IMG/VR virus record: IMGVR_UViG_3300023119_000124
Location: 1-23,811 of that record
From: a virus
Length of the DNA: 23,811 nucleotides
Direction: 5' to 3' (one strand)
Part shown: one piece after another, positions 15,443 to 17,751 of the stretch
Position numbering within the stretch: the first letter of the stretch is position 1
How the letters are laid out: every line of letters starts with the position of its first letter
Translations under genes and position numbers: made by a program
The notes under the pieces: model-generated
Told to the model about the DNA's origin: nothing
The model's database searches: none
What the model saw: only the letters and a program-made list of their open reading frames with translations

Positions 15443-16660
15443 TTATAATACCACCCATCTTGATCCGCTAGGAACTGTTACCGATACACCGCTGTTTACT
15501 GTTAATGGTCCTGTACTCATAGCATTAGTGTTTGTTGTTAGTGTGTAGCTAGTCGTAATAGTCTGACCATTCTCATAAAATACTTGGTCTCCTCCACCAC
15601 CTGTAGCTCCACCACCGCCTCCAATAGCTCCCCACGCAGAACCATCGTAGCCCTCAAAAGAACTATCAGTTGTATTAAATCTTAAATAACCAGCAGCAGG
15701 TGAACCATCTCTCTGTGCTGTAGTACCGCTAGGAATCTCCGCAGAGCCTGTAGCAGACGTTTCAACAACGTATGTACCTAGATCACTAATCTGTGATTCT
15801 GTGATGCTGAGAGCAGCCTGATGCTGTGTGACAGAGCTTTGTGTGATGTTTGCATCTGGTACGTTAGCCCATGTAACAGCAGCAGTAAGATCGTTAGTTT
15901 CTGTAAATGATTGTAATGCTGTATCTGCTAATGCACCCTGAGCAGCAGTAGCATAGTCTGCTGAACTAAATGCTTTAACTTGAGCAAGGTTAGTTACCTC
16001 ACTATCCATCAATGCACCAGCAGCAGTAACATTAGCTGTGTCTGTTACATCAGCACCTGTCTCGATACCTGCTAGTTTAGTCTCTTCAGCAGTTGTGTAT
16101 GATGCTGTAGTTGCAGCTAAGACAGCAGAGTATGCTTGTACGTCAGTACCAATTTCTAAACCAAGATTAGTTCTTGATGTACTAGCACTTGCTACGTCAG
16201 ATAGGTTGTTAGCTGCTTGTAAACCACCACTACCTGTAGTAATAGTTTGCCAAAGAGTTCCATTCCAAACGTAGATAATATCGTCATTAGTATCGTAATA
16301 CATTGCTCCTTCAGCTAAAGCATCACCGTCATTATCAACGGCAGGAGCAGATGACTTAGCACCTAAGTAACGATCATCAAAAGAATCTAAAGCTAATTCT
16401 GCAGCAGCTTGTGCTGTCTCAGCATTAGTCTCAGCTAACTCAGCAGCAGTCTGTGCTGTTTCAGCAGCAGATTGAGCAGCCTGTGCAGCTACCTTAGCAG
16501 CATTTGCATTAGATGCTTCATTAGCAGCAGAAGTGGCAGAAGAAGCAGCAGCCGATGCAGACGCTTCAGCTTCAGCAGCTTTAGTTGAAGCTACACTAGC
16601 CTCATTAGCTGCATCTGTTGTAGCATCTCCTGAACCACCTGCGCCTCTCCATATAGCCAT
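15443..16660 (-). CDS. Main tail fibre shaft protein, 405 aa
   Basis: The ATG at 16660 has AAGGAAG six bases upstream, starting immediately after the stop of the pqqA-like gene. Residues 1-10 contain AIWRGAGGSG, which is a common fibre opening. Residues 12-95 are an Ala/Glu/Ser-rich alpha-helical stalk (AASSATSAANEASNANAAKV and similar) likely forming a trimeric coiled coil. Residues about 97-150 have the YYDTNDDIIYVWNGTLWQTI tail-spike motif. The middle is Ala/Thr-rich shaft with EETKLAGIETGADVT, a well-known fibre repeat. SPAAGYLRFNTTDSSFEGYD comes next, a Gly-rich break and the closing domain ending VPSGSRWVVL. It is the first gene of the fibre locus. It probably carries the fibre to which tip proteins downstream attach; attachment is inference. 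Confidence 0.88.
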   Translation of the reverse strand: MAIWRGAGGSGDATTDAANEASVASTKAAEAEASASAAASSATSAANEASNANAAKVAAQAAQSAAETAQTAAELAETNAETAQAAAELALDSFDDRYLGAKSSAPAVDNDGDALAEGAMYYDTNDDIIYVWNGTLWQTITTGSGGLQAANNLSDVASASTSRTNLGLEIGTDVQAYSAVLAATTASYTTAEETKLAGIETGADVTDTANVTAAGALMDSEVTNLAQVKAFSSADYATAAQGALADTALQSFTETNDLTAAVTWANVPDANITQSSVTQHQAALSITESQISDLGTYVVETSATGSAEIPSGTTAQRDGSPAAGYLRFNTTDSSFEGYDGSAWGAIGGGGGATGGGGDQVFYENGQTITTSYTLTTNTNAMSTGPLTVNSGVSVTVPSGSRWVVL

Positions 16661-16669
16661 GTTACTTCC

Positions 16670-16741
16670 TTACTTATTAGCGATATACATTGTTACTTCA
16701 AAACCAAAACGTAACTCTGTGTATTCAGGTTTAGACCACAT
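16670..16741 (-). CDS. pqqA: PqqA-like coenzyme PQQ precursor peptide, 23 aa
   Basis: A 24-codon gene hidden between the capsid and fibre genes. The product starts MWSKP and continues [16 protein letters not shown]. It agrees in length and register with cellular PqqA (23 residues in Klebsiella): Trp2, Lys4, Pro5, Leu10-Arg11, Gly13, Glu15-Val16-Thr17 and Tyr19, with Asn22 and a basic final residue. In the known pathway PqqE, a radical SAM enzyme helped by PqqD, joins the Glu and Tyr side chains of PqqA. Proteases and PqqB/PqqC then finish pyrroloquinoline quinone, the cofactor of periplasmic alcohol, methanol and glucose dehydrogenases. Both cross-linked residues are present. No other pqq gene is in the window, so host enzymes would be needed. 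The ribosome binding site is exceptionally strong. A host-made cofactor boost during infection is the simplest idea; a decoy or regulatory peptide is the alternative. Identity confident; function inferred. Confidence 0.9.
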
Positions 16742-16743
16742 CA

Positions 16744-16754
16744 GATCACCTCCT
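16744..16754 (-). promoter_or_regulatory. Near-perfect Shine-Dalgarno sequence of the pqqA-like gene
   Basis: On the minus strand this reads AGGAGGTGATC, 11 contiguous bases complementary to the 3' tail of 16S rRNA (GATCACCTCCT). GGAGG ends seven bases before the ATG at 16741. Other genes here, including the capsid gene (AAGGAAA), have much weaker sites. It decides the start of this tiny gene and predicts heavy translation. Confidence 0.88.
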
Positions 16755-16756
16755 AT

Positions 16757-16790
16757 TAAAAGCTCCCCAAGCCTTGTGAGCCTGGGGAGT
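16757..16790 (-). terminator. Rho-independent terminator-like hairpin after the major capsid gene
   Basis: On the minus strand CTCCCCAGGC, loop TCACAAG, GCTTGGGGAG form a 10-bp stem (16763-16789) with one G-U pair, followed by CTTTTAAT. The stem is GC-rich in an AT-rich genome. The U run is short, so termination may be partial, with read-through into the pqqA-like and fibre genes. It may also protect the 3' end of the capsid message. Position after the capsid gene is usual for such attenuators in podoviruses. Confidence 0.78.
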
Positions 16791-16799
16791 TATTACAAA

Positions 16800-16815
16800 C
16801 CAGCTATTAAGCTGG
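16800..16815. other. Small inverted repeat around the capsid gene stop codon
   Basis: CCAGCT, four-base spacer ATTA, AGCTGG: a perfect 6-bp inverted repeat whose loop overlaps the capsid gene stop (16807-16809). It lies 10 bases ahead of the larger hairpin. It could be a minor RNA hairpin at the end of the capsid message; chance is possible. Confidence 0.4.
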
Positions 16816-17751
16816 AACTGCTAGAGCAACAGCACTGCTGTCACGCAACTCAGCTACACCGTAAAGCATATCTGACGTGAACAACGTACCGAGGTACTCT
16901 TGCTTGTACTGAGTCTGTGAACGTACACCCATTTGTTCAGCAAGAACGAAAGCATCCTTGTGAGCCATGAGACAGATACGGTCAGTTGCAGAGTTACCTG
17001 CAGCAGTATCAGCATTAGTTGTAACGTAGACCTTAACACCATAGATGTCACCAATCTGACCGTTACGGATTGTGTTTCCACCGCCAACTTCACCAACGAA
17101 TGCTTGCTCAGTGAACCGTGCAAGACCCATTAATGTGTTACGAGTTGTAGGAGGAACAATCAAGAAACGATCTGACATTGGAACGTCATTGTCATCAAGT
17201 CTCTGGATTGAACGACGGATACCAGCATCACCAAGTGCAGCAGCATTTGAAGATGAAGAGTTGTAAACCGTAGCACCAGTAGAACCGATGAATGCGTTAG
17301 TTGATGTAGCAGCAGTAGCATAGTCAGATGTACCGACAACACCACCATTAACGCCACGACCAAGCTGAATAAGGTCTGTATCAACCTGAGTAGCCAAAGC
17401 ATAACCAGCATCGTCCGTGTAGAAACGACGTAGTGAGCTAAGAGCCTGTGTCTCTACGATATCCTCGATCAAACGTGAATACTCGTAGTGCTTGTTGATA
17501 AGAACCTGCTGCTCTGACTCAGTTGCAGCAATAAGCGTTACCTGAGTAGAAGCTGCCTTCGCAGATGCAGAACCACGAGTAGGCTTCGGAATGTGAAGCG
17601 TATCGCCCTTCTTACCTTTGAAAGACATTTTAGAAAACAAGTTTGCAGCAACAAGATTAGCCTTATATGCTGCGATGATTTCGTCGGACCAAATCTCTGG
17701 GATAAATTTATCCGCAGTAGTCTTGGTCACATGGTTAGTACCTAGTGCCAT
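16807..17751 (-). CDS. Major capsid protein (HK97-like fold)
   Basis: 314 residues beginning MALGTNHVTKTTADKFIPEI, then WSDEIIAAYKANLVAANLFS. This opening is typical of coat proteins of marine podoviruses. GDTLHIPKPTRGSASAKAAS, the helix VLINKHYEYSRLIEDIVETQ, then RFLIVPPTTRNTLMGLARFT and IGDIYGVKVYVTTNAD follow the usual order of N-arm, P-domain strand, spine helix and A-domain. The end (MLYGVAELRDSSAVALAVPA) is also conserved. It would form the icosahedral head with the scaffold upstream. AAGGAAA precedes the ATG. The codon use looks higher in G+C than that of the internal and polyvalent proteins, as is common for an abundant capsid gene. A terminator-like hairpin follows. Confidence 0.9.
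   Translation of the reverse strand: MALGTNHVTKTTADKFIPEIWSDEIIAAYKANLVAANLFSKMSFKGKKGDTLHIPKPTRGSASAKAASTQVTLIAATESEQQVLINKHYEYSRLIEDIVETQALSSLRRFYTDDAGYALATQVDTDLIQLGRGVNGGVVGTSDYATAATSTNAFIGSTGATVYNSSSSNAAALGDAGIRRSIQRLDDNDVPMSDRFLIVPPTTRNTLMGLARFTEQAFVGEVGGGNTIRNGQIGDIYGVKVYVTTNADTAAGNSATDRICLMAHKDAFVLAEQMGVRSQTQYKQEYLGTLFTSDMLYGVAELRDSSAVALAVPA

Follow-up and report, generated by a model that had tools for sequence, protein, structure and literature searches.

A 72-base pqqA gene between the capsid and tail-fibre-like genes of a marine-type phage, and its counterparts in methylophages

A pqqA gene lies between the capsid and tail-fibre-like genes

The window analyzed here is the whole 23,811-nucleotide (23.8 kb) stretch of IMG/VR record IMGVR_UViG_3300023119_000124, from a marine-type, podovirus-like virus with a bacterial host. 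On its minus strand, a pqqA gene lies downstream of the major capsid (head) gene and upstream of a tail-fibre-like gene (Table 1), and PHROG matches identify portal, terminase, tail, amidase and ribonucleotide reductase genes elsewhere in the window. Both this placement and the coordinates of pqqA agree with an earlier note on this DNA, which left the strand unstated: the minus strand encodes the peptide, while the plus-strand reading was rejected due to an internal stop codon. All residues listed in that note (W2, K4-P5, L10-R11, G13, E15-V16-T17, Y19 and N22) are present in the product. The peptide scores well above the cut-offs of two curated profiles, namely TIGR02107, the NCBIfam PqqA equivalog (47.6 bits, E 1e-12; cut-off 20), and PF08042, the Pfam PqqA family (43.5 bits, E 2.9e-11; cut-off 21.1), which upholds the proposed identity. 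A PqqA profile search over the entire viral record returned a single match (E 7e-12), and no PF08042 match was found among 14 control genomes. The E-x3-Y spacing of the pair cross-linked by PqqE, which we take to be numbered E15 and Y19 in PqqA, is shared by the window peptide and the products of all viral genes described below; these two residues were not used as bait when the window family and the isolates were collected. Judged from its sequence, this is a true PqqA gene carried by a phage.

Table 1. Features at the pqqA locus of the window
Feature	Position	Strand	Evidence
pqqA, 23 codons and stop	16670..16741	minus (read 16741-16670)	above PF08042 and TIGR02107 cut-offs
Shine-Dalgarno of pqqA, inside TAGGAGGTGA, 5' of ATG	16748..16757	minus	sequence
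Hairpin CTCCCCAGGCTCACAAGGCTTGGGGAG followed by CTTTTAA, terminator-like, in the gap between capsid gene and pqqA	16763..16789	minus	sequence, relatives
Major capsid (head) protein, upstream of pqqA	16807..17751	minus	PHROG 267 major head protein, E 2e-49
Tail-fibre-like protein, directly downstream of pqqA	15443..16660	minus	PHROG tail fiber families, E 1e-18 to 1e-21

The pqqA start codon is preceded by AGGAGGTGATCTG, a strong ribosome-binding site, and the Shine-Dalgarno-like AAGGAAGT of the fibre gene overlaps the pqqA stop codon (sequence TAAGGAAGTAACATG). The hairpin upstream of pqqA is strong and recurs in relatives with stem bases altered in pairs, as judged by eye. Since terminator-like matches in the region are no more frequent than expected by chance, the argument for this hairpin rests on its position and conservation. 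A promoter scan near the window pqqA returned nothing above chance.

The late structural region had been considered an unusual place for a metabolic gene. This view is not supported, as psbA of Prochlorococcus phage P-SSP7 adjoins the major head gene and other methylophages place pqqA elsewhere. Both P-SSP7 psbA and the window pqqA are host-type metabolic genes beside a major head gene; however, psbA encodes a photosystem protein and lies upstream of the head gene, whereas pqqA encodes a cofactor precursor and lies downstream.

The slot is variable among the nearest relatives

We compared the window with the nearest relatives of its phage, whose head proteins are 84-100% identical. In five of them (L002, L003, L005, L006 and L008), pqqA occupies the slot that is flanked by the capsid and fibre genes. 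Four others (L004, L010, L011 and L012) keep a hairpin and the fibre gene with no pqqA, and in L040 pqqA lies approximately 7 kb from the slot. The same locus is therefore found in some related phages, and is empty or displaced in others. This patchiness marks pqqA as the cargo of a variable slot, and as non-essential within the window's phage lineage. A nucleotide search of the segment from pqqA to the capsid gene against phage records gave no match, which leaves this lineage without a close deposited isolate. Two of the relatives have an additional short open frame whose end overlaps the start of pqqA (L006 6600-6720, with MTWQDFCRKRELDNHKKQELLKLRQRKHYVD; L008 2400-2520), as would fit translational coupling; the window has no such frame.

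Cultured phages and environmental contigs carry pqqA

A tblastn search of the window peptide against 50,697 phage records matched 12 of them. Nine are phages of Methylophilales or Methylophilaceae (MEP301, MEP401, MEP402, Venkman, P19250A and four Melnitz variants), which correspond to six distinct cultured phages with hosts in these taxa, a tally that excludes HIM624-A, MEP431-434, Venkman EXVC038S, MG-MtP1 and other deposited Methylophilales phages. The other records are ctXG6705 (Manatee Spring) and two MD-2021a contigs. Acinetobacter- and Methylobacterium-type PqqA queries retrieved from the phage records the same methylophages, ctXG6705 and MD-2021a, and nothing further. In the methylophage and ctXG6705 records that we opened, pqqA is a stand-alone gene of 23-24 residues with a Shine-Dalgarno sequence, and it is unannotated on the coding strand. 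It has recombination genes nearby in Venkman and MEP301, precedes a block of small genes and tail genes in MEP401 and MEP402, and adjoins tRNA-Leu and baseplate genes in Melnitz. Among MEP401-type contigs with enough upstream sequence (marker at 87% identity or more), three out of four have pqqA. The genes of Venkman, MEP301, MEP401/402, P19250A and Melnitz resemble that of the window in standing alone behind a Shine-Dalgarno sequence, but they belong to other lineages and neighborhoods and encode Methylophilaceae-type peptides.

Venkman and MEP301 share approximately 140 bp at 79% DNA identity (L083 3947-4087 and 3296-3439, respectively), comprising pqqA and about 50 bases upstream, in genomes that are otherwise dissimilar. 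This segment suggests a shared promoter, or the transfer of pqqA together with its control region.

We also scanned IMG/VR with the pattern RFGFEVTMY, which carries 41 bits and would match by chance about 0.05 times per 1e11 positions. At least 120 stretches matched and, beyond the cultured phages, pqqA occurs in at least 119 IMG/VR contigs. Among the stretches listed, each encodes a full PqqA of 23-25 residues with a W near the start. When ten larger genes from ten such contigs were analyzed, most matched terminase, head, tail fibre, helicase, DNA polymerase and clamp loader families. Chance matches were rejected on the basis of the information content of the pattern, the Shine-Dalgarno sequence found in all cases and the phage-gene neighbors. 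None of pqqB, pqqC, pqqD and pqqE was found in the viral stretches fetched, which are partial, whereas many bacterial loci do have them.

We give practically no weight to the explanation that these genes are bacterial contamination or chance open frames. Such a case does exist among the INPHARED records, namely Acinetobacter phage MD-2021a: of its two contigs, the one that we opened (CAKLQF020000010.1, L088) contains a pqqABCDE operon with fur and ppk and looks like bacterial chromosome, and it was set aside as a contamination-like control. The window pqqA, however, sits between capsid and fibre genes, and the neighbors tested in environmental contigs encode terminase, capsid, DNA polymerase and similar proteins. 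The presence of the same gene in sequenced isolates with complete genomes refutes contamination.

Phage pqqA is under purifying selection

For 11 phage pqqA genes whose retrieval did not rely on the core motif, we obtained a pS of 0.69 and a pN of 0.15 (pN/pS 0.22). When only the RFGFEVTMY core of the same genes is considered, pS is 0.65 and pN is 0.02. A larger set of 132 viral pqqA genes, 119 of which had been retrieved with the core motif as bait, comprises 120 distinct DNA sequences and 54 peptides, with freely varied codons for R, F, G, V, T and Y. W2, E15 and Y19 are present in all 132 genes. Thus pqqA is under purifying selection in phages, and the check proposed in the earlier note came out in its favor: silent sites vary, yet none of the relatives has lost E15 or Y19. 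Every viral pqqA that we checked has a Shine-Dalgarno-like tetramer within 20 nt upstream, compared to 20% for shuffled upstream sequence.

The gene could in principle be a passive passenger, recently acquired from a host and functionless in the phage. Its patchy occurrence in the capsid-fibre slot (absent in L004 and L010-L012) and the many scattered host copies available for pick-up would agree with this, but the low pN/pS, a core that is nearly unchanged although silent sites have varied heavily, and the recurrence of the gene in unrelated phage lineages, always with a Shine-Dalgarno sequence, make it highly improbable.

Peptide types point to the hosts

Almost all Methylophilaceae genomes contain pqqA (149 out of 150), with a median of 4 copies and a maximum of 12. 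Methylophilaceae have been reported to carry 3-12 copies of pqqA, with the other pqq genes usually present as one set (PMC4109929). Stand-alone copies are numerous in bacterial methylotrophs, with nine in Methylophaga muralis (L252), and many lie distant from pqqBCDE.

The peptides of OM43 phages are of the Methylophilaceae PqqA type, and the commonest peptide in the Methylophilaceae loci that we fetched is identical in many phages. Instead, 2 residues separate the window peptide from the Burkholderiales-type form, which occurs in marine Betaproteobacteria TMED22 and similar MAGs, and its distance from the Methylophilaceae forms is 6 residues or more. Due to this similarity, the host of the window phage is probably a PQQ-making bacterium of the Burkholderiales type. 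The peptide type is the sole pointer to the host, as no tRNA that could serve as a clue was found in the window. PqqE is above the cut-off in 96 out of 100 Methylophilaceae genomes and in all six Burkholderiales-type genomes that best match the window peptide; the host pathway assumed in the earlier note is therefore supported for the bacterial groups with similar PqqA.

A proposed role in the PQQ pathway of the host

Phage pqqA is a host-type metabolic gene that lies inside bona fide phage genomes, as indicated by its head and fibre flanks and by the cultured carriers, and it is kept there by selection. The peptide is complete, with both cross-linked residues in place, and no enzymes accompany it; its most likely fate is therefore to serve as additional substrate in the pathway of the host. 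We consider it likely that phage pqqA is a minimal stand-alone auxiliary metabolic gene that supplies the PQQ pathway of the host. The 23-residue peptide would be translated by the phage during infection and accepted by host PqqD and PqqE, which would join Glu15 to Tyr19; host PqqB/C and peptidases would then complete PQQ. The added PQQ would sustain XoxF/Mxa-type or other alcohol dehydrogenases, and thereby provide energy and carbon for phage production. Extra substrate, already proposed in the earlier note, is the best mechanism in view of the PqqA identity, the conserved E15 and Y19 and the presence of PqqE in the host groups; that the gene is expressed in infected cells, that host enzymes process the peptide and that the phage gains from it is what we infer.

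Several published observations bear on this proposal. The joining of Glu and Tyr of PqqA by PqqE is established (PMC9851590 and references there), and an experiment cited in the same paper obtained PQQ from purified PqqA and cell extract at 70-80% conversion. In addition, xoxF is the most abundant OM43 transcript, and PQQ-dependent methanol dehydrogenases are among the most abundant proteins in coastal methylotrophs (PMC5120137). Since one PqqA is consumed per PQQ, supplying only the peptide would be an unusually cheap push to the pathway, at 72 bases and one peptide per cofactor. Hosts show the same economy in multiplying pqqA, usually with a single set of the remaining pqq genes. As they already have several pqqA copies, an extra one would be useful only if host expression drops or demand rises. 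Moreover, PqqA is not always limiting, since in one engineered Acetobacter pqqAB increased PQQ by 29%, versus eightfold with pqqABCDE (PMC7936290).

The phage peptide could also act as a decoy or brake, which occupies host PqqD/PqqE or serves as an altered substrate, and thus lowers or redirects PQQ synthesis. An enzyme-free peptide would suit a competitor too, and position 4 often varies in phage genes, from K to T or S. A decoy would nevertheless be expected to lose E15 or Y19, whereas the phage peptides retain this cross-linked pair along with the complete RFGFEVTMY core, and many of them do not differ from host PqqA at all; we regard this role as very unlikely. It is also very unlikely that PqqE or another radical SAM enzyme converts the peptide into a different product (signal, redox carrier or RiPP). 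PqqE does belong to the RiPP radical SAM class, and a PqqA-annotated family has been suggested, by co-expression only, to take part in phage interactions (PMC11118758); however, the NCBIfam equivalog score is more than twice the cut-off, the viral stretches fetched contain no PqqE-like partner, and here again phage and host peptides can be identical.

Returning to the supply of extra substrate, our data suggest that viruses of methanol-eating bacteria in oceans and lakes routinely feed the PQQ assembly of their hosts. We cautiously favor the broader view that a lone pqqA is near-universal in phages of pelagic methylotrophs and has been missed at 72 bases, that unrelated lineages acquired it independently because host takeover makes PqqA limiting, and that the window extends this habit to Burkholderiales-type hosts. 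If phages routinely bring the PQQ precursor, infection would be tied to C1 oxidation in oceans and freshwaters, in the way that psbA ties cyanophages to photosynthesis. Cultured phage-host pairs with pqqA already exist, and the idea is therefore testable now.

Earlier reports and annotation of viral pqqA

Like cellular PqqA (PF08042, TIGR02107), the window peptide has 23 residues with W2 and E15-V-T-x-Y19 and exceeds both cut-offs; unlike it, the gene is phage-encoded and capsid-adjacent, with no other pqq genes within 23.8 kb. Viral PqqA was described in 2020 from Lake Baikal, where VP_266 belongs to a virus pair with methanol dehydrogenase and was proposed to aid methanol oxidation in Methylophilaceae (PMC7678222). 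That virus is T4-like and has the dehydrogenase, whereas the window is podovirus-like, encodes a Burkholderiales-type peptide and contains no dehydrogenase in 23.8 kb. In 2026, pqqA, pqqE and pqqD were reported in viral contigs from reservoir sediments (PMC13188868). Viral pqqA has thus been reported before, and its breadth, the cultured carriers and the matching of peptide to host type appear to be new.

The papers on Venkman, MEP301, MEP401/402 and Melnitz make no mention of phage pqqA, and its spread across methylophages appears to have been overlooked. Prodigal, a common gene finder, has a default minimum of 90 bases, and the length of pqqA, at 72 bases, would explain the oversight. The case is a warning that standard phage annotation does not see metabolic genes this small. 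The unannotated copies are those of MEP402, Venkman, MEP301, P19250A, Melnitz and ctXG6705 (L082-L087, in this order) and of MEP401 (L089). In Melnitz and ctXG6705, a hypothetical protein, probably spurious, has been called on the strand opposite to pqqA.
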